Source of the DNA: an uncultured Alistipes sp.
Lineage (GTDB): Bacteria; Bacteroidota; Bacteroidia; Bacteroidales; Rikenellaceae
NCBI GenBank assembly: GCA_947367255.1
Contig: CANBCZ010000004.1
Span: 52,945 to 116,944 of the forward strand
Reading direction: 5' to 3'
Length of the DNA: 64,000 bases
This document shows positions 41,839 to 54,413 of this stretch, piece after piece (the stretch's first letter is position 1; each line of letters opens with the position of its first letter). The notes beneath the pieces were generated by a model. It made no database searches. It saw only the letters and a program-made list of their open reading frames with translations, and was not told the DNA's origin. The position numbers were made by a program, and so were the translations under genes.

Positions 41839-44800
41839 ATGAAGAAGTTTGCTATGTTTGTTGGTTTAGCATTGGTGATGCTTGCCACAAGTTGTTCGAC
41901 TGACACTACTGATGTCAATCTCAATGGCGCGAAGGTGACACTTGGCGTATCTCTTGACCAGACTCGTACATATATGGGCGAGCTCAACAATGGTCAGTAT
42001 CCTGTACTTTGGAGCGAGGGTGACTGTCTTCTGGTAAATAACAAGGTTGTAGCTGTGCCTGCAGAGTATGTAGGTAAGGCGACTGTTCAGGTGGCTGTAG
42101 ATGCTGCTGAGGCGTACAATGTTGCATATCCTGCCGATTTGGTTTATGGCAATGAGCTGACTATTTCTGAGGTTCAGAAGTATGCTGAGGGTTCATTTGC
42201 TGTAGGTTCTGGCGTTATGGTGGGTTACTCACACTCTGCAGATGCTGTAGGTTTGAGAAACCTCTATGGTTACTTGAAGTTTACTGTTACAGGTGCTGCA
42301 AATGTAGATGCTGTAACTGTTGTTGCTGCAGGTGGCGAGGCTATCTCCGGTACTTACTCTATCGACTACAAGGAGGCGACTATTGCTCCAAAAGCAGGTA
42401 AGGATATTATCCGCGTAACCGATGTAGTTGCAAAGGATGGCGTTGCAACCGTTGTTGTGGCTGTTCCTGCAGGCGAGTACAGCAAGGGTTTCGAGGTTAA
42501 GATTAAGGATAATGCAAATGGCGTGATGGTTAAGAGCCTGAAGGCTGCTGGTACTGTTGTTGAGGCAGGTACTGTTTACGCTATGCCTGAGGTTGCTTAT
42601 GCTGCAACTGCTACTGAGACCGAGATTACAACTGCTGCGGATTTACAGGCATTTATCGCTGCTGCAAATGCGGGCGACTACTCTGCTTATGTAAGCGCTG
42701 ACGGTGAGGTTAAGCTCGGTGCAGACCTCGACCTTACAGGTGTTACCCTTGATCCTATCACTACATTTAACGGTATTTTCAATGGTCAGGGCTATGCTCT
42801 TAAGAACTGGACCTCTTCTAAGGGCTTGTTTGTTTTGAACAGTGGTACTGTTAAGAATATTGTAATTGACGAGAGCTGTAAGCTGACTCTTCCTGTAATT
42901 ACAGAAGCAGCAATGATTGGTTTCGTTGTTAATCAGAATACAGGTTTGGTTTCTGGTTGTGTGAATAACGCAGATATTACTCTGAATCATGAGGCAGATT
43001 TGGCTCTTCAGTACAAGGTTGGTGCTATTGTTGGTTACTCTTCTGGTGCAGGTAAGGTGTCAAATTGTATTAACAATGGTGATATTACAATGACTTTCCC
43101 TGCAATTACAGCAGGTTCAGATTATTTGGGTGGTGTTGTTGGTAATACTTCTATGGACGACGCTGCATTTGTAGCTGTTGAGAACTGTATTAACAATGGT
43201 GACCTTACATTTACAGTACAAGGTGCAAGTAAGAACGTTTACCTTGGTGGTATTAGCGGTGCTTGCAACAGCAGGGGTGTAATCAATAACTGTATTAACA
43301 ATGGTGCAGTTGTGTACAACTTTATTGCTGGTGGTAGTGGCGCATATCCTAACGTTGGTGGTATTGTTGGTTACACAGCTTGTACTATTAATGATTGTAA
43401 GAACTACGGTGATGTAACTTTCTATTCTGAGGGAGACCTTACTCGTCCTGCAGTTGCTGGTATTGCTGGTTATGTATCAAGAACTGTTAAGGGTTGTGAT
43501 AACTACGGTAACATCTCTGCAAAAGGTAATAAATTTGCTAAAGCTGCTTCTGCAACTGGAGGTGGTGTCGGCGGTGAGCAGTGGCCTGCATTTGCTGGAT
43601 GTTTCGGTTGCGTAGGTACTGTTGCAAGCAATGGTACTGCAGATATTTCTGACTGTAATAACTATGGTAAGGTGCTTGTTGTAAACCCTAATGGTAGCTG
43701 CCGTTTTGCTGCTGCAGGTGTGGTAGGTGAGCCTTGCGGTAATGTGAAAAACTGCCATAACTATGGTGATGTTGATGTTACAGGTGGTTCTCAGGTATAT
43801 CTTGGTGGCGTTGCTGGTTATCACTATTTGGCAACAGACAAGGTTATGGAGAATTGCTCAAATGAGGGTGATCTTATCCTTCGTGAGGGTACTTACTTCT
43901 ATGGTGGTGGCGGTGACGTCTCAGGTGCTGCATACCAGTATGTTGGAGGTCTTGTAGGTTCTTACAATAAATATACAAACTTTAAGGCTACCAACTGTGT
44001 TAATAAGGGTGAGGTGAAGTCTGTTTGCCGTTTGCCAGTTCTGATTGGTGGTCTGGTTGGATGTATCCGAGGCACATTTGAGAACTGTGAAAACTATGGT
44101 GATGTTATTAATGAGAACGGTTATGGTACTAAGTTGTCTGCAACTGCTGGTATTGCTGGTTTTGGCGGTGGTTCTTCATTGAATTGCGCAAATTATGGAA
44201 ATGTTACAATGACAAATGCAACCGGCTTATACGCAGCTACTGCACTCCTTGGTGTTGTTGGTAATACAGAGCAGTCTCATGTCGGAACAACTCTTAAGTG
44301 TGCTGTTTCTTCAAATCTTGGTATCGCGCTGCTCGTAGCAGGTCAGAGCAATAATGGAATGACTGTTACTCTTGGTGCTGCAGAGGCTCCAATTACTCTC
44401 TCTGATGTATCACTTAATGGCGTTGCTGTTACAGCGGATAACCTCGCAACTACAACTGTTGCTGTTAATACTGAGGAGGCAAATGTTGCAAACCTTGTTT
44501 ACGAGCTTGGTACTACTGTTGTAATTGAGGGTGACGCTCCAGCTCCAGCTGCTCTCTCAATTGATGGTAAGCGTTGGCAGCTGCCATCAGACATCGCAGA
44601 GATGCTTGCAGGTGTTCCTACAGCAGTAGTTGTTGCAGATCTTGGCGTATCAACTGCAGGTCAGCTCGCAATTGTTGTTGACTATGAGTCAGTTTATGGC
44701 GCACAGGCTGCTGGTTACTGGGCTCCAATGGTAATGGTTGCTTATGAGGTTCAGGCTACTGATGCTACTTCAGGTAAGGTGTTGGTTAAGCAGACTGACC

Positions 44801-44955
44801 ACTTCGGCGATGTTACTAACGTAGAGGTTCCATACTCTAACCTTACAGCTGATAGCGTAGTTATCGACTTTACAAACATTCTCGGCATGCCAGGTACAGG
44901 CTCTTGCACTCTCTACACAGGCGAGGTTAACTTGTCAGGTGGTGGTGTAATGTAA
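41839..44955 (+). CDS. Large surface lipoprotein with GLUG-type repeats and shared C-terminal module
   Basis: 1038 residues. Lipoprotein signal MKKFAMFVGLALVMLATSC (Cys19). Residues about 25-250 resemble a fimbrillin/Mfa-like domain (RTYMGELNNGQYPVLWSEGDCLLVNNK). A long region (about 290-850) is made of repeats of about 40-50 residues with NCINNGDIT, NYGDV and GGIVGY motifs, the GLUG-type beta-helix. The last about 130 residues (SIDGKRWQLPSDIAEML ... GGGVM) are nearly the same as the end of the protein at 52422. Codons are strongly biased to GCT/GTT/GGT, so high expression is likely. It is probably exposed on the outer membrane; the binding target is unknown. Confidence 0.8.
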   Translation: MKKFAMFVGLALVMLATSCSTDTTDVNLNGAKVTLGVSLDQTRTYMGELNNGQYPVLWSEGDCLLVNNKVVAVPAEYVGKATVQVAVDAAEAYNVAYPADLVYGNELTISEVQKYAEGSFAVGSGVMVGYSHSADAVGLRNLYGYLKFTVTGAANVDAVTVVAAGGEAISGTYSIDYKEATIAPKAGKDIIRVTDVVAKDGVATVVVAVPAGEYSKGFEVKIKDNANGVMVKSLKAAGTVVEAGTVYAMPEVAYAATATETEITTAADLQAFIAAANAGDYSAYVSADGEVKLGADLDLTGVTLDPITTFNGIFNGQGYALKNWTSSKGLFVLNSGTVKNIVIDESCKLTLPVITEAAMIGFVVNQNTGLVSGCVNNADITLNHEADLALQYKVGAIVGYSSGAGKVSNCINNGDITMTFPAITAGSDYLGGVVGNTSMDDAAFVAVENCINNGDLTFTVQGASKNVYLGGISGACNSRGVINNCINNGAVVYNFIAGGSGAYPNVGGIVGYTACTINDCKNYGDVTFYSEGDLTRPAVAGIAGYVSRTVKGCDNYGNISAKGNKFAKAASATGGGVGGEQWPAFAGCFGCVGTVASNGTADISDCNNYGKVLVVNPNGSCRFAAAGVVGEPCGNVKNCHNYGDVDVTGGSQVYLGGVAGYHYLATDKVMENCSNEGDLILREGTYFYGGGGDVSGAAYQYVGGLVGSYNKYTNFKATNCVNKGEVKSVCRLPVLIGGLVGCIRGTFENCENYGDVINENGYGTKLSATAGIAGFGGGSSLNCANYGNVTMTNATGLYAATALLGVVGNTEQSHVGTTLKCAVSSNLGIALLVAGQSNNGMTVTLGAAEAPITLSDVSLNGVAVTADNLATTTVAVNTEEANVANLVYELGTTVVIEGDAPAPAALSIDGKRWQLPSDIAEMLAGVPTAVVVADLGVSTAGQLAIVVDYESVYGAQAAGYWAPMVMVAYEVQATDATSGKVLVKQTDHFGDVTNVEVPYSNLTADSVVIDFTNILGMPGTGSCTLYTGEVNLSGGGVM

Positions 44956-44973
44956 TAGCGATTACGCATAAAT

Positions 44974-45011
44974 AAAAACAACGGCGGGAAAACTCCTGCC
45001 GTTGTTTTTTT
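44974..45011 (+). terminator. Terminator of the GLUG lipoprotein gene
   Basis: ACAACGGCGGG-AAAACT-CCTGCCGTTGT with T7 tail, 19 bp after the stop. Confidence 0.85.
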
Positions 45012-45025
45012 GTTGATACACCCAC

Positions 45026-45056
45026 AAAAAAGAGAGCGTCCGACTGGACGCTCTCT
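45026..45056 (-). terminator. Terminator of the ROK kinase gene
   Basis: Minus strand AGAGAGCGTCC-AGTC-GGACGCTCTCT followed by TTTTTG, 23 bp after the stop codon. Confidence 0.85.
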
Positions 45057-45079
45057 ACTATTATGTAAATAGGTAAGGC

Positions 45080-46078
45080 TTACATATTTTGCCAAACGAG
45101 TGCTGAAGCACCGAGGATTGCGGCATTCTTGTTCTGCAGGCCTGATGGGAGCACCTTAACCTTATTCTTAAAGGCGAAGAGCATATTCTCCTCCATATAC
45201 CACTTAATTGGGTCGAGGATCAGATCGCCAGCCTTTGCAAGACCTCCGAAGATGAAGATCGCCTCAGGGGAGGTGATGGTAACGGCATCGGCAAGTGCGT
45301 AACCGAGACGCATACCTGTAAGGCGGAATGCCTCCTTAGCGATTGGATCGCCCTTAAGTGCGTGCTGGTAGAGGATTGCAGAGTCCATATCGTTGAAAGA
45401 GATGTCGCGCAGAGGTGACTTGTCGTTCATAGTCGCCATAAGCTCGAAAGCGGTGCGCTTAATACCGATAGCCGATGCGTAGGCCTCAAGGCAACCCTTA
45501 CGACCGCAGCCGCACTCTCTACCACCGCGCTCAACGATAACATGACCGAACTCGCCGGCAAAGCCGTCGTGACCGTAGATCATCTCGCCATTAGAGACAA
45601 AGCCCGAGCCGACACCTGTACCGAGTGTAACCATAATAAAGTCCTTCATACCCTTTGCATTGCCGTAGACCATCTCGCCGATAGTTGCTGCATTAGCGTC
45701 GTTGGTAACATATACCGGAACATTAGGGAAGTGAGACTTGATATCCTCTGCGAAGTTGAACATACGCAGGTTCGCGTTCTGGTCCTTATCCTCGGCAGTG
45801 AACTTCCAGAGGTTTGCCGGGGTCTCGATAGTGCCCTTATAGAAGTTTGCGTTAGGGGCACCAACGCCGATACCGATAAGCTCGAAATCGAAGTTTACAG
45901 CCGCAACGAGCAACTTCATAGCCTCACAGAGGTCTGCCACATAGCGAGGGTAGTCCTGATAGTTAGGATATGCGCGGGTAGAGATTACAGACTCGCCAAA
46001 CAGCTCGCCCTTCTCGTCCACAAGTCCAAATGCTGTATTGATACCGCCGATATCAATACCGAATGCAAGTTTTTTCAT
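45080..46078 (-). CDS. ROK family sugar kinase (glucokinase type)
   Basis: 332 residues. The ATP-binding GIDIGGINTAFGLVDEKGEL is at the N-terminus, the catalytic Asp in VYVTNDANAATIGEMVYG, and ROK signature GHVIVERGGRECGCGRKGCLEAYAS with the zinc-binding CGCGRKGC. ROK kinases phosphorylate glucose, GlcNAc, ManNAc and similar sugars in the cytosol. IDIGG in place of DIGGT-type (GGIN) is a mild variation. Glucokinase is the best guess but substrate is uncertain. It is a single gene with its own promoter and terminator. Confidence 0.87.
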   Translation of the reverse strand: MKKLAFGIDIGGINTAFGLVDEKGELFGESVISTRAYPNYQDYPRYVADLCEAMKLLVAAVNFDFELIGIGVGAPNANFYKGTIETPANLWKFTAEDKDQNANLRMFNFAEDIKSHFPNVPVYVTNDANAATIGEMVYGNAKGMKDFIMVTLGTGVGSGFVSNGEMIYGHDGFAGEFGHVIVERGGRECGCGRKGCLEAYASAIGIKRTAFELMATMNDKSPLRDISFNDMDSAILYQHALKGDPIAKEAFRLTGMRLGYALADAVTITSPEAIFIFGGLAKAGDLILDPIKWYMEENMLFAFKNKVKVLPSGLQNKNAAILGASALVWQNM

Positions 46079-46120
46079 AAAAGGTGTGTTCTATAATTAG
46101 TAAATCAATTTCTTTGTATC

Positions 46121-46150
46121 AAAGGTAGTTAAAAAACGCGCAATTGCAAA
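46121..46150 (-). promoter_or_regulatory. Promoter of the ROK kinase gene
   Basis: Minus strand TTTG, about 18-19 bases, TACCTTTG, a close consensus match 43 bp before the start codon. Confidence 0.7.
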
Positions 46151-46239
46151 ATATATTTTATGAATGGTGGAATTTTGGGAGTGGGTCGCTTAACTTTATA
46201 CTTTATTTTGTATATTTGTACTTGGAAAATTGTTTAGAT

Positions 46240-47211
46240 ATGAATACACCGAAGCAGATAGCCGAAATGTTTGAGCGATACATCGCTCTTGTAAATATGC
46301 CTGATGAGCCGCAAAGGCTCTATGCCCCAATTCGTTACTCGCTTGCCGAGGGTGGTAAGCGTATGCGTCCTGTGCTGACGATGCTTGCGTACAACATCTA
46401 TGCAGATGATGTTCAGCGCGTGCTCCCTGCAGCTGCGGCGGTTGAGGTTTTTCACAACTTCACGCTGCTGCACGACGATATTATGGATAATGCGATGGTG
46501 CGCCGTTCGCGTCCGTCAGTATTTGCAAAGTGGGGTAGTAATGTGGCTATTCTCTCGGGCGATGTGATGATGATTGAGGCGTATCGCCATCTGCAGGGGG
46601 TAGAGACGAAGTATCTGCCCGCCGTATTTGAACGTTTCAACACTATGGCGGCGCAGGTGTGCGAGGGTCAGCAGTACGATATGGACTTCGAGACTCAACC
46701 AAAGGTTGCGGTGGCGGAGTATATGAATATGATCGAGCTCAAGACTGCCGCGCTGCTCTGTGGTGCGGTGACAATCGGTGCTACGCTTGCAGGTGCCTCG
46801 GAGGAGGATGTGCAGAAGTTGCACAGATTTGCAACGGAGGTGGGTCTTGCCTTTCAGTTGCAGGACGATCTGCTTGACAGCTACGGTGATGAGCAGCTTG
46901 GCAAGAAGATTGGTGGCGACATACTCGAGGGAAAGAAGACCTATCTGATGATTATATCGCTCTCGCACGCAACAGAGCCTCAGCGTGAGGTGCTCCGCTC
47001 GACACACCTCAATAAGGAGCTGTCGGATGAGGAGAAGATTGTCGCAGTGAAGGGTGTTTATGACGCTATAGGGGCAAAGCAGATGACCGAGCAGCAGATC
47101 TCGGTGCGTATCTCGCGTGCACTTGCAATACTCGACACACTCTCGGTACCTGCCGAGCGTTTGGAGTATATGAAGAGCTATGTGGAGAGCCTTGTAGGTA
47201 GAAAAAAGTAG
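46240..47211 (+). CDS. Polyprenyl (trans-isoprenyl) diphosphate synthase
   Basis: 323 residues from ATG 46240 (MNTPKQIAEMFERYIALV); the track start lies upstream of a TATATTTG -7 element (46211-46218). The first Asp-rich motif is LLHDDIMDNAMVRRSRPS and the second is QLQDDLLDSYGDEQLGKKIGGDILEGKKTYL, with GGKRMRP near the N-terminus. These enzymes join isopentenyl diphosphate units to farnesyl, geranylgeranyl or longer chains for quinones and membrane carriers. Product length cannot be read. It is 4 bp before the U32 gene. Confidence 0.9.
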   Translation: MNTPKQIAEMFERYIALVNMPDEPQRLYAPIRYSLAEGGKRMRPVLTMLAYNIYADDVQRVLPAAAAVEVFHNFTLLHDDIMDNAMVRRSRPSVFAKWGSNVAILSGDVMMIEAYRHLQGVETKYLPAVFERFNTMAAQVCEGQQYDMDFETQPKVAVAEYMNMIELKTAALLCGAVTIGATLAGASEEDVQKLHRFATEVGLAFQLQDDLLDSYGDEQLGKKIGGDILEGKKTYLMIISLSHATEPQREVLRSTHLNKELSDEEKIVAVKGVYDAIGAKQMTEQQISVRISRALAILDTLSVPAERLEYMKSYVESLVGRKK

Positions 47212-47215
47212 AGAG

Positions 47216-48457
47216 ATGAAGAGAACAGATATAGAGATTATGGCGCCTGTAGGCTCGTATGAGAGTCTATATGCGGCGATTAATGCGGGTGCAAACTCGG
47301 TATATTTCGGTATCGGACAGCTCAATATGCGTTCGGCATCGGCAGCAAATTTTACTGCCGACGATATGGCGGAGATTAACCGCATTGCGCACGAGCACGG
47401 GGTAAAGACATACCTTACCGTAAATACGATTATCTACGACACCGAACTCAAGTTGATGCACGAGGTGGTAGATAGAGCAAAGGCAGAGGGTGTGGATGCG
47501 ATTATTGCATCTGACCTCTCGGTAATTCTCTATGCCTACCATGTGGGCGTGGAGGTGCACATATCTACGCAGTGCAATATCTCGAACAGCGAGGCGGCGA
47601 AGTTCTACTCGCAGTGGGCAGATGTGGTTGTGCTGGCGCGTGAGCTCTCGCTCGAGCAGATTGCTATGGTGCACAAGCAGATTGTTGAGCAGGATATACG
47701 CGGTCCGCGTGGCGAGTTGCTCAAGATAGAGATGTTCTCGCACGGTGCGCTCTGTATGTCTATCTCGGGAAAGTGTTACCTCTCGGAGCACGAGACGGCT
47801 TGTTCGGCAAATCGTGGTGCGTGTCGTCAGATCTGTCGTCGCAAGTACACTATTCAGGACAAGGATTCGGGAGAGATGCTCGATATTGACGGTCGTTATA
47901 TCCTCTCGCCGAAGGATCTGTGTACGGTCGATTTCCTCGACAAGTTTATCGCTGCGGGCGTGAGTGTGCTCAAGATTGAGGGTCGTGCGCGCGGTGCGGA
48001 GTATGTGAAGCGTGTAGTGGAGTGTTACGACCTTGCTCTGCGAGCTATCGAGCGCGGAGAGTACAGCAGAGAGTATGCCGATGGGTTGAAAGTTACCCTC
48101 TCAAAGGTCTTTAATCGTGGCTTCTGGGGTGGTTACTATGCCGGTGCAAAGGTTGTTGAGCATAGCACAAACTACGGCTCGTCTGCAACCCGTCGCAAGG
48201 TATATGTGGGCAAGGTGACAAACTACTTCAAGCGTCTTGGCGTTGCCGAGGTGCTGATTGAGGCCGCTCCGCTTGCCGTTGGCGACGAGATACTCTGGAT
48301 GGGCGAGACTACGGGATGCGTGGAGCAGATTGTGGGTGAGATTCGCCTCGATCTAAATCCTGTTCAGAGCGTTAAGCAGGGCGATGTTTGCTCGATTAAG
48401 GTTGAGGGCTCTGAAATCAGAAGGGGAGATAAACTCTACAAAGAGGAGGTACGATAG
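47216..48457 (+). CDS. trhP: U32 family protein, prephenate-dependent tRNA uridine-34 hydroxylase (TrhP/YegQ) type
   Basis: 413 residues: MAPVGSYESLYAAINAGANSVYFGIGQLNMR, the U32 barrel start, VHISTQCNISNSEAAKFYSQWADVVVLARELSLEQI, and the U32 signature EMFSHGALCMSISGKCYLS with cysteines in SANRGACRQICRRKY, which likely hold an Fe-S cluster. TrhP-like proteins make 5-hydroxyuridine at position 34 of tRNAs. Formerly called collagenase-like 'peptidase U32'. The similar RlhA (23S) is about 650 aa, so the length favours TrhP. Co-transcribed with the polyprenyl synthase. Confidence 0.85.
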   Translation: MKRTDIEIMAPVGSYESLYAAINAGANSVYFGIGQLNMRSASAANFTADDMAEINRIAHEHGVKTYLTVNTIIYDTELKLMHEVVDRAKAEGVDAIIASDLSVILYAYHVGVEVHISTQCNISNSEAAKFYSQWADVVVLARELSLEQIAMVHKQIVEQDIRGPRGELLKIEMFSHGALCMSISGKCYLSEHETACSANRGACRQICRRKYTIQDKDSGEMLDIDGRYILSPKDLCTVDFLDKFIAAGVSVLKIEGRARGAEYVKRVVECYDLALRAIERGEYSREYADGLKVTLSKVFNRGFWGGYYAGAKVVEHSTNYGSSATRRKVYVGKVTNYFKRLGVAEVLIEAAPLAVGDEILWMGETTGCVEQIVGEIRLDLNPVQSVKQGDVCSIKVEGSEIRRGDKLYKEEVR

Positions 48458-48530
48458 TAAGTCGTGAAATTCATCCACTTTGACAACTTACGGAAGACTT
48501 GAGTAATAACCATAATAAAACCTAACCACT

Positions 48531-49424
48531 ATGACACCACAAGAGAGAGTTGCGGCGATATTCACAGAGCCCGACTTTTGCCCAGAGAACTACAAGGGCG
48601 AAACAGACGAGAACGGTCTACCACACGGCAAGGGAACGATGAAGTATGAGGAAAAGGTAACTTTTGCTTGGTTCTGGTTGATGGATGATAGTATTGCCCC
48701 AAAGCGCTATGAGGGTCAGTGGGAGCACGGCGTAAGGTGCGGAGAGGGTAAGATGACCTTCTATGCAGATAAAAGCCAGCACTACTCCTATACGGGTCAG
48801 TGGGTAGCGGGTCTGCCAGAGGGTTGTGGTACTATTCGCATCATCGACGAGCGCGGCAAAGAGAGCATAACCCCTTATAACCTTGTGGCGGGTATGCGCG
48901 AGGGCTGTAATACGGTTGTTGAGTTTGGTAAGACTATTGAGTGCGAGTGGAAGGCGGGCGTTAAGGAGGGTGTAGGTATCTGTACAATGCCTAACGGTCA
49001 GCAGTTTAGAGGCGTGTGGCACAATGATAATTTAGACCTTGATGGCTGTGACTTTATGGAGCCAACAGAGTCTCCGACACTTATCGTTACGCTCTATTAT
49101 GCAGGTTTTGACTATAGTCGTCGTATAGTTGCACTTGTTCAGGGTATCTGTGGAGAGCATACTATAGGCGAGTCGTTGCCTATTCTTTGTGATAAAGGTT
49201 TCAAGGAGCAAGATACGCTTATTGAGATTCTCGGTGTTGAAAATGGTGTGGTTGAGTATATTGTTGATGGTATATACTCGGAGGATAAAACTATGCAGGT
49301 GGGCAGGGTTGCGCCAGGTGAGACGGTCAAGCACGCTTATCGTAAAAAAGCTACAGCCAAAATCTATGACGACGACCACGACTATGAAATAGTTCGTGAA
49401 ATAGAGATTAAGTATAATAAATAA
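48531..49424 (+). CDS. MORN-repeat protein
   Basis: 297 residues with no signal peptide. MORN-type units (GxGxxxYxxGxxYxGxWxxGxxxG) include YKGETDENGLPHGKGTMKY, RYEGQWEHGVRCGEGKMTFY, SYTGQWVAGLPEGCGTIRI and CEWKAGVKEGVGICTMPNGQQFRGVW, spanning residues about 18-170. The C-terminal 120 residues form a separate domain (LYYAGFDYSRRIVALVQGICGEHTIGESLPILCDKGFKEQDTLIEILGVENGVVEYIVDGIY) with no family I know. MORN repeats often bind lipids or scaffold proteins; role here unknown. Located between trhP and pepP. Confidence 0.78.
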   Translation: MTPQERVAAIFTEPDFCPENYKGETDENGLPHGKGTMKYEEKVTFAWFWLMDDSIAPKRYEGQWEHGVRCGEGKMTFYADKSQHYSYTGQWVAGLPEGCGTIRIIDERGKESITPYNLVAGMREGCNTVVEFGKTIECEWKAGVKEGVGICTMPNGQQFRGVWHNDNLDLDGCDFMEPTESPTLIVTLYYAGFDYSRRIVALVQGICGEHTIGESLPILCDKGFKEQDTLIEILGVENGVVEYIVDGIYSEDKTMQVGRVAPGETVKHAYRKKATAKIYDDDHDYEIVREIEIKYNK

Positions 49425-49436
49425 AATGGTATAATT

Positions 49437-50834
49437 ATGTTTGCATCAACAACTTACGTGGCTCGCAGAGCCGAGCTTTGTCGTCGAATTGGCAGCGGAC
49501 TTATCCTTATCCCTGGCAATATGGAGGCGTCATACAACTATCCGAACAATACATACCACTTCCGTCAGGATGGAACATTTCTCTACTACTTCGGACTCAA
49601 TCTGCCGCAGTTTTTCGGTGTAATTGACGCTGCAACGGGCGAGGCGACACTCTTTGGTGACGATGTGACTGTAGATGATATTATCTGGATGGGCCCGCAG
49701 CCGACAGTGGTTGAGCTGGGTGCGCAGGTGGGTGTGAAAAACACACTGCCACTCTCGGCGCTTGCTACATTTATCGCAGCGGCGACAGCATCGGGTCAGG
49801 CGGTGCACTATCTACCACCATATCGCGGTAAGACCACCCTGCAGCTCTGCTCGTTGCTCTCAAAGAGTCCTGAGCAGCTGATGAAGGAGATGTCTGTAGA
49901 CCTTATGTTTGCTGTGGCAGAGATGCGTGAGGTGAAGAGTGAGGAGGAGATTGAGGCTATGGAGCGCGCCTTCCACATCGGTTATGCTATGCACACAACA
50001 GCGATGAAGATGTGTCGTGCGGGCGTTGTCGAGCGTGAGATTGCAGGTGCTATAGAGGGTATTGCGCTCGGTCAGGGTGCGGGTATCTCCTTTACATCTA
50101 TCGTCTCGCAGCACGGAGAGACCCTTCACAACCACAACTACGACGGAGTGTTGGAGAATGGACGACTGCTGCTTGTTGATGCAGGTGCGGAGAGCGTGGA
50201 TAACTACTGCTCTGACCATACTCGTACATTCCCTGTAAGCGGAAAGTTTACCGAGAAGCAGAAGGATATATATAATATAGTATTGGCGGCGCAGCAGCAG
50301 GCACCCGAGAATATGAAGAGCGGTGCGATGTATATGGAGGATGTGCACCGCAAGGCACTGCTTACCCTTGCCGAGGGATTGAAGGGCGTGGGGCTGATAA
50401 ACGGTAGCGCCGAGGATGCTGTGGCAGCGGGTGCGATGTTCCTCTTTATGCCGCACGGATTGTCACACGGTATGGGTATCGATGTGCACGACTGCGAGGG
50501 TATGGGCGAGCGTAGCTACGACTTTTCTGCTCTTGCCGAGCGCGCGGCAGAGTCGGCAACATGCATACACCGTGCAACTTGGCGTCTGCGTGCAGGTACG
50601 GTTATGAGTAACGAGCCGGGAATCTACTTTATCCCTGCGCTGATTGATAAGTCTCGCAGCGAGGGACTCTATAAGGGTATTGTGAACTACGACAAGCTCG
50701 ACGGCTATCGCGACTTCGGCGGTATTCGTATCGAGGACGATGTTATCGTGACAGATAATGGTGGCGTAGTAGTAGGAAAGGATAAGAAGATTCCGGTAAC
50801 CGTCGAAGAACTCGAGTCTGTTATCAGTAAATAA
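49437..50834 (+). CDS. pepP: Xaa-Pro aminopeptidase (M24B)
   Basis: 465 residues. The N-terminal creatinase/AMP_N domain (SGLILIPGNMEASYNYPNNTYHFRQDGTFLYYFGL) leads to the pita-bread catalytic domain. Metal ligands are the Asp of LLLVDAGAESVDNYCSDHTRTFPVSGKFT (two Asp), His of FMPHGLSHGMGIDVHD, Glu of NEPGIYFIP and Glu of GGIRIEDDV. It removes an N-terminal residue before proline in the cytosol. Followed by mqnB after 21 bp. Confidence 0.93.
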   Translation: MFASTTYVARRAELCRRIGSGLILIPGNMEASYNYPNNTYHFRQDGTFLYYFGLNLPQFFGVIDAATGEATLFGDDVTVDDIIWMGPQPTVVELGAQVGVKNTLPLSALATFIAAATASGQAVHYLPPYRGKTTLQLCSLLSKSPEQLMKEMSVDLMFAVAEMREVKSEEEIEAMERAFHIGYAMHTTAMKMCRAGVVEREIAGAIEGIALGQGAGISFTSIVSQHGETLHNHNYDGVLENGRLLLVDAGAESVDNYCSDHTRTFPVSGKFTEKQKDIYNIVLAAQQQAPENMKSGAMYMEDVHRKALLTLAEGLKGVGLINGSAEDAVAAGAMFLFMPHGLSHGMGIDVHDCEGMGERSYDFSALAERAAESATCIHRATWRLRAGTVMSNEPGIYFIPALIDKSRSEGLYKGIVNYDKLDGYRDFGGIRIEDDVIVTDNGGVVVGKDKKIPVTVEELESVISK

Positions 50835-50840
50835 ACTCAA

Positions 50841-50873
50841 AAAAGCCAATAGCCAATGGCTAATAGCCAACAG
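50841..50873 (+). repeat. AGCCAA short repeat overlapping the mqnB start
   Basis: AGCCAATAGCCAATGGCTAATAGCCAACAGCC. The ATG of mqnB and its next six codons (ANSQQP) are inside it. It matches the stretches before polA (10228) and near 54743. Confidence 0.75.
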
Positions 50874-51377
50874 CCTATATTTATCTTTGCTACCGAAGCC
50901 GAGGCGGCACCCGTAAGGGCTGCTCGTGGCGACCTTGATATCCGTATCTGCGGTGTCGGGGTGGTCGAGGCGGCTATGGCTGTGGCGAAGATTATCGAAG
51001 AGGAGCATCCCGAGGCGATTATCCTCTGCGGCATTGCAGGGGCGTATGACAGCACCCTTAATGTGGGCGATGTGGTGGCGGTAGAGGTGGAGCAGACGGC
51101 AACGCTGCCAAAGCTCTATCAGAAAAGCTACTCGGCAACCCTCTCGCTGCCACTTATGGCGGTGGTGTCGAATACCGTTATGGCTGTTGGAGCTGAGGCG
51201 TGCGGAGCGCAGGTAGAGAATATGGAGGGTGCGGCAGTATTTGCACTATGTGCCGACAGAGGTGTGAAGTGTGCGCAGATTCGTGCCATATCAAACTATA
51301 CGACCGACAGTCGCGAGCTGTGGGATATCCCTGCGGCACTTGAGGCGTTGGTAAATTGTATAAACGGACTGTTCTGA
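50856..51377 (+). CDS. mqnB: Futalosine hydrolase
   Basis: 173 residues, somewhat shorter than the typical 190-230. It opens MANSQQPIFIFATEAEAAPVRAA and has the nucleosidase core: CGVGVVEAAMAVAKII, LCGIAGAYDSTLNVGDVVAVE, VENMEGAAVFALCADRGVKCAQIRAISNYT. It cleaves futalosine (or aminofutalosine) to release the base. The first seven codons come from a repeat. No other start fits the conserved first strand. A middle segment of roughly 30 residues after VEQTATLPKLYQKS seems shortened. Overlaps mqnD by one base (TGATG). Confidence 0.87.
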   Translation: MANSQQPIFIFATEAEAAPVRAARGDLDIRICGVGVVEAAMAVAKIIEEEHPEAIILCGIAGAYDSTLNVGDVVAVEVEQTATLPKLYQKSYSATLSLPLMAVVSNTVMAVGAEACGAQVENMEGAAVFALCADRGVKCAQIRAISNYTTDSRELWDIPAALEALVNCINGLF

Positions 51378-52150
51378 TGAAAAAGTTATCGTTACATATC
51401 TCGCCATGTCCGAACGACACATTTGCATTTGATGCGATAATCAACCATCGTATAGATCACGACTTTGACTTTGCAGTAGAGTTCAAGGATATCGAGGAGC
51501 TCAACGAGGGTGTGCTGGCGGGTATTCCCGATATATCCAAAATCAGCTATTCGGTCTATCCGAAGATTGCGGATGAGTATCTGCTGCTCGACAGCGGCTC
51601 GGCGCTCGGTCGTGGCAACGGGCAGTTGCTTGTGCGTCGAAAGGGGGAGAATAGCCCTATTCGTACCGTAGCTACTCCGGGACTGAACACTACGGCAAAT
51701 GCGCTGTTGATGCGCTACTTCCCCGAGGTGGAGGTGGCGCCGATGCTCTTCTCGACAATTGCCGAGGCTGTGGAGCGAGGTGAGACAGATGCGGGAGTGC
51801 TGATACACGAGGGTAGATTTGTATATCATCGCCGAAACCTTGAGCTTGTAGCCGACTTGGGTAAGTTGTGGGAGGCGGAGAGCGGGTTGCCGTTGCCACT
51901 CGGAGCGATAGTTATGCGCAGGAGTGTTGCGGCGACAATCTGTAAGCAGTTTGAGGCTCTGCTTGCCGACTCGGTGCGTTTTGCCTTCGAAAATCCGCAA
52001 ATATCGCGTCAGTTCGTCAAACAGCACGCACAGGAGCTCGAAGATGCGGTTATAGAGAGCCATATTGCACTCTTTGTAAACGAGTATACCGTAACCCTCG
52101 GAAAGGAGGGTCGAGAGGCTGTAAAAAGGCTGTTGGGGGTTGATGTGTAG
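51377..52150 (+). CDS. mqnD: 1,4-dihydroxy-6-naphthoate synthase
   Basis: 257 residues from ATG 51377 (MKKLSLHISPCPNDTFAFDAIINHRID); the track start is upstream in mqnB. SPCPNDTFxFxA and DISKISYSVYPKI are family hallmarks, together with GNGQLLVRRKGE, PGLNTTANALL and GVLIHEGRFVYH. It belongs to the periplasmic-binding fold MqnA/MqnD family and converts cyclic dehypoxanthine futalosine to dihydroxynaphthoate. With mqnB it forms a translationally coupled pair. Confidence 0.93.
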   Translation: MKKLSLHISPCPNDTFAFDAIINHRIDHDFDFAVEFKDIEELNEGVLAGIPDISKISYSVYPKIADEYLLLDSGSALGRGNGQLLVRRKGENSPIRTVATPGLNTTANALLMRYFPEVEVAPMLFSTIAEAVERGETDAGVLIHEGRFVYHRRNLELVADLGKLWEAESGLPLPLGAIVMRRSVAATICKQFEALLADSVRFAFENPQISRQFVKQHAQELEDAVIESHIALFVNEYTVTLGKEGREAVKRLLGVDV

Positions 52151-52285
52151 GGTTTTATGAAAAAAATTTAATATTTTTTTGAAAGCCCCTAACTCTTCAA
52201 TAGATGAACCGCACTGCGGGAGTGTCGGTTATAGATTGTCATTAAAAGGGTGGCAAAACTTATAAATCGTAACTACGAAAGAGAA

Positions 52286-52320
52286 CCCTTCGGCGCAAAA
52301 AAGTGCCGAAGGATTTTGTT
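52286..52320 (+). terminator. Probable terminator after mqnD
   Basis: CCTTCGGC-GCAAAAAAGT-GCCGAAGG then ATTTTGTTTT. The gap 52151-52421 also holds GAACCGCACTGCGGGAGTGTCGGTT, a further small hairpin, and no gene. Confidence 0.6.
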
Positions 52321-52421
52321 TTGAAAAAATTTATTTATATCTTGCACTGCAAATCGGAACTAAAATGCTTTTTTTGACCCGATTATACATTAAAATTTAT
52401 AAATACTAAATAACTAATCGT

Positions 52422-54413
52422 ATGAAAAAATTTAGACTTTTACTTGTGATGTCATCGCTTCTGGCGCTGGTGTGCTCGTTTACAGCCTGCAGCACAGATT
52501 TAGCTGACAACTATCCTACTATCAGCGTAGAGGTTACACCGGGTGAGACCACTGCAAGCTCTATCGCATTTACTATTAAGGCTCAGGGTGCTGACGATAT
52601 CTACTACTGGGTAGTTAAGACTGCTGCTGAGGGTGAGGAGGATAATCCGGAGCTTAATATTAAGAAGGGTACCTACCTCGACGCTTCAATGGACACTCCA
52701 TTTGAGCAGTTGGTAGAGAAGACAGATCTTGCAGAGAAGACTGAGTATAACGTTTATGTATATGCAAAGAACTTCTCTCACGATGCTTATGCAACACCTA
52801 TCAAGCTTACAACTGGTGAGGCTGTAGTTATCGCTACCCCTACTGTTAAGGTTGTTCTCGATCCTGCTTCTGCTACAGAGACCTCTTTTGACGCTTTCGT
52901 AACAACTGAGAATGCTCAGAAGGCATCTTGGCTTGTACTCCCTAAGTATACTGCAGGCGTAAATGCTGCGAAGGTATTTGCTGAGGGTACTGCTATCACT
53001 GAGAAGCTTAACGAGGGCGAGGTTGCTGTAACTGTTGAGGGTCTTGAGCCAGGTACTGACTACGACTTCTACGTAGCTGTTGATAACGAGGGTGTTCAGG
53101 TACTGAGCGAGGTTGCTTCTGTATCTACAGTTGAGCCTTCAACTCCTGTAATTACAGTTGCTTTCTCTGAGCTTGCAGACTCAAAGAGTCTTGTTGATAC
53201 TGCTGGTCTTCCAGGTATGTATGTAATGGTTGCAAACCCTGAGACCAACGATTTGGCTCTGCTGTTTATGTATGACCTGACAAACTATCCTGACTATGCA
53301 GGTTACCTCTCTTCTGGTGACTATCCTGCACTTACAGGTTCTCTTGATGCTGGTCAGCTTCCACAGGCTTCTTGTCTGCTCGCAGATCCAAGTTATACTA
53401 ACTTTACTATCGGTGGTGTAGAGTACTATCCTGTAGGTGACCTCGGAGCAACTAAGGAGGGTTTGGTATATGGTCTTAACATTACTACCGTTATGCCAGA
53501 TGAGGATAACAACCTTATTACATTCAACGTTCCTGTAGTAGACGCTGCTGGTAATGAGTATATCATCCAGGGTGAGTATATGGGTCCTCTCGGTTATGTT
53601 GCTCAGATTCAGAGCTATCCATTTGAGCTTACTCAGTGGGGCTTCAAGGAGTTTACTGCAACTACTGAGGGTAATGTAGTTACTCTGAAGAGCACAAGCC
53701 TCAATGGTGACTTTGTTATGAATCTCCACACTGAGGATGGTAACTGGCTTGATACTGGATTCGTTGCAGGTGAGGGCGGTACCCTTACAGGTGGCTTCAC
53801 ATCTTACGTTGAGGGCGCTCCTGAGACTTTCTCATTCATCAGCGGTCGTATCTCTTTCTCAAAGGGTGAGGGCGAGAATGACTATAAGCTTATTATCTCA
53901 ACACGTGCTGGTGAGTGGATGATGCAGGGTCAGAGCGGTGCTTACACAATCGTAGTTCCAGAGTCAGAATACTATGATGTAAAGATTAACCTCCCAGCAG
54001 CTGAGACTCTCTCAGTAGATGGTAAGCGTTGGCAGTTGCCTTCTGACATCGCTGAGATGCTTGCAAGCTCTCCAACTGCAGTTGTTGTTGCAGACCTCGG
54101 CGTTTCAACTCCTGGTCAGCTTTATGTTGCTGTGGATTATGAGTCAATCTACGGTGCGCAGGCTGCAGGTATGTGGGCTCCAATGGTTGCTGTAAACTAC
54201 TCTGTTGAGGCTACAGATGCAACTTCTGGTAAGATTTTGGTTCAGTCATCTAATATGTATGGCGAGGTTTCAACTGTAGAGGTTCCTTACTCTAACCTGA
54301 CAGCAGATAGCGTAACCATCGACTTTACCAACTTGCTCGGTATGCCGGGCAATGGTCCTTGCACACTCTATACAGGAGAGGTTAATCTTCAGCAGGGTGG
54401 TGGCGTAATGTAA
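52422..54413 (+). CDS. Surface lipoprotein with Fn3-like domains and shared C-terminal module
   Basis: 663 residues. Lipoprotein signal MKKFRLLLVMSSLLALVCSFTAC (Cys23, lipobox FTAC). Two fibronectin type III-like domains follow (about 33-130, 137-240; EKTEYNVYVYAKNFSHDAYATPIKLTTG, LEPGTDYDFYVAVDNEG). A beta-rich central part (250-520) is uncharacterised. The last about 130 residues (SVDGKRWQLPSDIAEMLASSPTAVVVADLGVSTPGQLYVAVDYESIYGAQAAGMWAP ... QQGGGVM) are almost identical to the end of the 41839 protein. Codon bias suggests high expression. Probably on the outer membrane. Confidence 0.8.
   Translation: MKKFRLLLVMSSLLALVCSFTACSTDLADNYPTISVEVTPGETTASSIAFTIKAQGADDIYYWVVKTAAEGEEDNPELNIKKGTYLDASMDTPFEQLVEKTDLAEKTEYNVYVYAKNFSHDAYATPIKLTTGEAVVIATPTVKVVLDPASATETSFDAFVTTENAQKASWLVLPKYTAGVNAAKVFAEGTAITEKLNEGEVAVTVEGLEPGTDYDFYVAVDNEGVQVLSEVASVSTVEPSTPVITVAFSELADSKSLVDTAGLPGMYVMVANPETNDLALLFMYDLTNYPDYAGYLSSGDYPALTGSLDAGQLPQASCLLADPSYTNFTIGGVEYYPVGDLGATKEGLVYGLNITTVMPDEDNNLITFNVPVVDAAGNEYIIQGEYMGPLGYVAQIQSYPFELTQWGFKEFTATTEGNVVTLKSTSLNGDFVMNLHTEDGNWLDTGFVAGEGGTLTGGFTSYVEGAPETFSFISGRISFSKGEGENDYKLIISTRAGEWMMQGQSGAYTIVVPESEYYDVKINLPAAETLSVDGKRWQLPSDIAEMLASSPTAVVVADLGVSTPGQLYVAVDYESIYGAQAAGMWAPMVAVNYSVEATDATSGKILVQSSNMYGEVSTVEVPYSNLTADSVTIDFTNLLGMPGNGPCTLYTGEVNLQQGGGVM

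Follow-up and report, generated by a model that had tools for sequence, protein, structure and literature searches.

An optional C-terminal domain that appears to be exchanged among unrelated lipoproteins of gut Alistipes

Two lipoproteins encoded in the window, the 64,000-nucleotide stretch of an uncultured Alistipes genome analysed here, differ over most of their length and end in the same module. We read this module as an optional, independently folding β domain, about 130 residues long, which is exchanged among unrelated lipoproteins and is, somewhat probably, a distal binding head. We count as established the homology of the copies, their exact junctions, the optionality and swapping of the module, the purifying selection acting on it and a confident fold prediction. 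The features concerned are the following.

41839..44955, + strand: GLUG-type lipoprotein, scaffold plus module, 1038 aa (open reading frame; lipobox ATS-C19; sub-threshold Glug motif in four stretches)
41839..41895, + strand: signal peptide II of the GLUG protein with its lipobox cysteine, C19 (from the translation)
41896..44544, + strand: GLUG scaffold without the module, ending ..LVYELGTTVVIEGDAPA (stop position of the module-free relatives from G003 and G491, which end in ..GTTIVVK* and ..GTTIVVE*)
44545..44955, + strand: module copy 1, exchangeable and C-terminal, 136 aa plus stop (77% identity to copy 2; ten close members in nine genomes)
44974..45009, + strand: terminator-like hairpin immediately 3' of copy 1 (16-pair stem and T run)
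52422..54413, + strand: Fn3-containing lipoprotein, scaffold plus module, 663 aa (open reading frame; PF00041 fn3, E=4.8e-07)
52422..52490, + strand: signal peptide II of the Fn3 protein with its lipobox cysteine, C23 (from the translation; identical lipobox in module-free orthologues)
52491..53993, + strand: Fn3 scaffold without the module (end point of eight orthologues, 516-542 aa long and mostly seen in synteny after MqnA)
54000..54413, + strand: module copy 2, exchangeable and C-terminal, 137 aa plus stop (AlphaFold2 pLDDT 88.4, pTM 0.82; homologous module on the orthologues in G003 and G466)

BLASTP aligns residues 901-1038 of the GLUG protein with residues 525-663 of the Fn3 protein (107 of 139 positions identical, 77%; E=5e-65), and outside the module reports no significant likeness between the two except in their signal peptides (E=0.016). 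The DNA of the two copies is 76% identical, this similarity ends at the stop codons, and flanking identity is at background level, 49% over 600 bp upstream and 44% over 200 bp downstream. The genome that contains the window (G000; 2.07 Mb, 59 contigs, 94% complete) harbors exactly two copies. The claim of the first-pass annotation that two unrelated lipoproteins share a common end is thus borne out, with 77% identity over ~137 residues and an unrelated remainder, and so is its view of the module as a discrete, repeatedly used C-terminal unit. It had also called the two ends almost identical, which holds for the sharing and not for the degree, since a dS of ~0.9 and 77% protein identity indicate that the copies split long ago. 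Likewise, the GGGVM tail that it included in the module closes both window copies and is not family-wide, the tails of relatives being GGGVAM, GGGIAQ, VTVQ or SMQ. The invariant core residues of the module are W11, D32, Y67, D73, Y97, and N99 (numbering of the 137-aa copy). Searches of Pfam, NCBIfam, PHROGs, and PDB sequences return no match to the module, and hence no known enzymatic or binding domain among them. The domain family is new, and its kind, domain shuffling on surface lipoproteins, is already known.

AlphaFold2 prediction of the module from nine sequences yields a confident model (pLDDT 88.4, pTM 0.82) comprising eight or nine strands and four short helices, in which the last five residues (GGGVM) alone are disordered (pLDDT ~40). 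A compact β-rich domain of ~130 residues is thus well supported by the model. The top Foldseek neighbours of this model are small lipocalin-like barrels, namely Tp0751/pallilysin (5jk2), B. ovatus BACOVA_00364 (4gzv), and HP1028 (4inn), at non-significant values (E 0.27-0.9, TM 0.39-0.49, 7-13% identity). No lipocalin sequence-profile match is found in Pfam or among PDB sequences, and the lipocalin-like resemblance of the predicted fold is a weak lead rather than a family assignment.

Both scaffolds start as lipoproteins, with lipobox cysteines read by eye in the translations behind a hydrophobic segment (ATS-C in the GLUG protein, FTA-C in the Fn3 protein). The residues that follow, C-STDTTD and C-STDLAD, are polar then acidic, with fewer acids than in the published consensus of the Bacteroidota surface-export signal located after the lipobox cysteine, K-(D/E)2, which is SDDDD in B. 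fragilis (PMC5080379). The lipobox and the Bacteroidota setting suggest that both proteins are displayed on the outer membrane. Of the two scaffold labels proposed initially, Fn3 stands (Pfam fn3, 30.3 bits against a 25-bit cut-off), whereas GLUG falls below the Pfam cut-off (8.8 bits against 20.5), and is kept here as a name for the type. Pfam reports no match for the N-terminus of the window GLUG protein. N-termini resembling it occur in at least a dozen proteins in some genomes of the genus (e.g., G490, G510, G452), forming an expanded surface-type family. AlphaFold2 modelling of the entire Fn3 lipoprotein, with a two-sequence alignment, gives an unusable model (pLDDT 46).

The presence of the module is variable at a fixed junction. 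In relatives for which the neighbourhood is available, the Fn3 lipoprotein lies downstream of mqnA, and the module is present or absent at this one locus depending on the species. Its orthologues carry the module in G000, G003, and G466, and lack it in G471, G449, G029, G028, G481, G469, G491, and G006, where the proteins (516-542 aa) end at the position at which the module starts and retain an identical signal peptide and lipobox. The same is seen for the GLUG scaffold, of which the two closest module-free relatives (G003 and G491) end in ..GTTIVVK/E, precisely at the junction of the window protein. Among GLUG-type lipoproteins, 29 of the 30 open frames are read without the module, a few of these frames running into contig ends. 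A within-genome pair occurs in G030 (L012:8233-15030), where tandem GLUG-type lipoproteins are encoded, one with and one without the module. In genomes with a module-free scaffold, six-frame searches reading through stops detect no second, decayed module.

Relatives of the Fn3 scaffold may bear other C-terminal domains. One, in G458 (L043:1399-3309), ends in a different domain devoid of any Pfam match, and another, in the window's own genome (G000:C19), terminates in a region resembling CBM26 (sub-threshold, E 0.004). The latter (L118:3767-6082) is a lipoprotein-like protein of 771 residues in which the middle region of the Fn3 lipoprotein is found behind a different N-terminus and is followed by this sub-threshold, CBM26-like starch-binding end. 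This arrangement suggests that the middle region, too, is a domain that has been reused, possibly with a tie to starch binding.

These module-free proteins bear on the proposal, made in the first-pass annotation, that the module serves in this lineage as a C-terminal signal for attachment, export or assembly. The module is indeed C-terminal in all ten close members and common to unrelated lipoproteins. However, the module-free orthologues stop right at the junction, those of the Fn3 protein keep signal peptide and lipobox, and nearly all GLUG-type frames (the 29 of 30 above) do without the module. SprA, the pore of the type 9 secretion system (T9SS; TIGR04189), is not found in the window's own genome (94% complete), whereas, of 31 genomes in the phylum sample, 24 are positive in the identical search. 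Moreover, the module is predicted to be a folded domain of ~130 residues, unlike a short sorting tail. Since module-free Fn3 orthologues keep the lipobox, SprA is undetected and the module is a folded domain, a signal function is not supported and we consider it very unlikely. The accompanying statement that the module is not a recognised PorSS domain agrees with our searches: no T9SS/PorSS sorting-domain family appears among the Pfam and NCBIfam matches for the full proteins or the modules. Assignment as a T9SS sorting domain was accordingly rejected, given the missing family match, the undetected SprA and the orthologues of both scaffolds that lack the module. A repeated C-terminal end need not mean a secretion signal.

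Close copies of the module are restricted to this lineage, as had been surmised. The ten close members occur in nine of 180 genomes of the genus, as two copies in G000 and a single copy in each of eight further species. The named module-bearing records are Alistipes/Rikenellaceae metagenome-assembled genomes whose sources, where stated, are the guts of cattle, goat, and deer. All of them being metagenome-assembled might suggest an assembly artefact, but identical junctions recur in independent assemblies from several host animals, and both window copies lie in intact frames within a 117-kb contig, which makes this explanation extremely improbable. Profile searches beyond the genus, at the order and phylum levels, report distant relatives only. 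In the order-level search (393 genomes), G044 encodes a stand-alone lipoprotein of 330 residues, of which the C-terminal half fits the module profile at 34.9 bits, against a shuffle maximum of 8.6. In the tandem protein of G044, the score of the first "domain" is 5.5 bits, under this 8.6 shuffle maximum, and its relation is tentative. Two further matches near E 0.002-0.009 (G197, G192) were rejected as module carriers, the proteins looking unrelated and such E values being expected by chance over 393 genomes. The phylum-level profile search of a 396-genome sample adds no module genome. G1065, which belongs to another family, encodes a third architecture (L130:1486-2775), a fimbrillin-like lipoprotein of 429 residues in which Mfa_like_1 (E 1.4e-37) is followed by a divergent module, 39% identical to that of G044. 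Carriage by phages or mobile elements was also considered and rejected: there is no match in phage records or viral contigs, and a viral fold search gives no significant match.

Comparison of module-bearing genes between species indicates that modules and scaffolds have separate histories. In the GLUG genes of G006 and G028, the last 600 bases upstream of the module are 90% identical and the module DNA 61%, whereas between G006 and G029 the upstream DNA is ~56% identical and the module DNA 97%. The amino acids give the same reversal (scaffold 87% and module 55% for G006-G028; scaffold 65% and module 97% for G006-G029). Between G006 and G029, neighbouring genes have a dS of 0.62-1.72 and the module one of 0.09, so a recent transfer was confined to the module or to a short tract containing it. 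The module tree joins the Fn3-borne copy of G003 to the GLUG-borne copy of G471, and it rejects a single clade of Fn3-borne modules (AU p 9.5e-05). The scaffold tree rejects a clade of module-bearing Fn3 scaffolds (AU p 3.3e-04), a result compatible with gain and with loss alike. The tree of GLUG N-terminal regions is gappy and was excluded from the conclusions. Together, the rejected clade of Fn3-borne modules and the identity reversals make the module phylogeny independent of the scaffold phylogeny, and the sequences indicate that the module is swapped between scaffolds and species by recombination, independently of the scaffold. The GLUG genes of L009, L010, L013, L112, and L019 have scaffolds that are themselves mosaic, with sliding identity that leaps along the gene between values of 28% and 100% in comparisons of species pairs.

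It could be argued that the resemblance of the two window genes is merely the outcome of their recent duplication or gene conversion, their modules being 76% identical to each other while the module of the window Fn3 protein is 59% identical to that of the G003 orthologue. Against this, the dS between the window copies (0.91) resembles that of orthologues to the related genome G471 (0.49-0.91 for U32, PepP, and MqnA), so the copies are not a recent duplicate and are about as old as the split from that species. Furthermore, both scaffolds bear the module in other species, eight species besides that of the window having it. Recent duplication or conversion as the whole explanation is thus highly improbable, and an additional local conversion event between the window copies is possible.

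The module dN/dS of 0.13-0.19 indicates purifying selection, with the proviso that a pairwise value is an average in which a few diversifying sites would stay hidden. This bears on a reading in which the exchange provides surface variation only, for evading phage, antibodies or grazers, and the module needs no ligand. Scaffolds and modules are indeed mosaic across species, and the surface diversity of Porphyromonas gingivalis arises by domain rearrangement and allelic exchange (PMC5266723). Purifying selection and the invariant core speak against variation for its own sake, although not decisively in view of the masking just mentioned, and we regard this reading as unlikely.

A module acting instead as a structural cap or oligomerisation domain, which would steady the end of an elongated surface protein, is a doubtful but not negligible alternative. 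In the close set the module is always terminal, its predicted fold is compact and β-rich, and β-helix-type scaffolds can require caps. Yet both scaffolds have module-free relatives, the Fn3 scaffold does not belong among the GLUG-repeat proteins, and swapping of the module occurs regardless of the scaffold that a cap would need to fit. The strongly conserved core residues fit a structural role equally well.

We therefore return to the binding head, with which the position at the free end, the optionality, the exchange under purifying selection and the other C-terminal domains on relatives of the Fn3 scaffold are all consistent. Against it, the analysis turns up no ligand and no binding site. 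The module would extend unrelated lipoproteins beyond their natural C-terminus (in the genus those of GLUG and Fn3 type, in another family a fimbrillin-like one), and recombination would pass it between scaffolds and between species. With the lipoproteins on the outer membrane, it would occupy the end distant from the lipid anchor and may form a small head that binds or adheres to a glycan, a small molecule or a host, plant or microbial surface, giving the scaffold a new specificity. More tentatively, the C-terminal ends of the lipoproteins could be a general display slot, filled by recombination in gut Bacteroidales with interchangeable binding heads drawn from a common pool. A new ligand-binding family would then have this module as its first described member, and the module would travel between species as a domain-sized unit, more quickly than the chromosome around it. 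A riboswitch link to vitamin uptake was discarded, as Rfam reports neither a cobalamin riboswitch nor any other RNA across the 19-kb neighbourhood.

In uncultured Bacteroidales of herbivore guts, many of the abundant surface-type lipoproteins lack a functional assignment. A domain whose gain, loss and swapping all occur at a single fixed site, and for which module-free orthologues serve as natural controls, offers a handle on what such lipoproteins recognise: the natural pairs with and without the module and the cross-species swaps make its function testable. If the head binds a glycan of the diet or the host, it would account for a species-specific niche trait.

Among known systems, the closest documented precedent for the window lipoproteins is the BtuH-type lipoprotein of Bacteroides, which is membrane-associated, has a predicted lipoprotein export sequence and binds vitamin B12 through a C-terminal globular domain for which known structural homologues are absent (PMC8941943). 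It serves as a precedent only, with neither a family assignment nor a sequence link. The small lipocalin-like barrels resemble the module in being a single small, mostly β domain, at non-significant similarity (E >= 0.27); Tp0751, one of these top weak Foldseek neighbours, is a reported adhesin. Fimbrillin-like proteins (PF13149, Mfa_like_1) are connected to the module through G1065, where a distant relative of it follows such a domain, but the module itself is not a fimbrillin. With the T9SS C-terminal domains the module shares its C-terminal place on Bacteroidota surface-type proteins; unlike them, it is optional on lipidated proteins, has no family match and occurs without a detectable SprA. 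Lastly, the domain variants of Porphyromonas gingivalis surface proteins form a mosaic unrelated to strain phylogeny (PMC5266723). That rearrangement involves other proteins and domains and takes place between strains, whereas exchange of the present module appears to operate between species and on two unrelated scaffolds.
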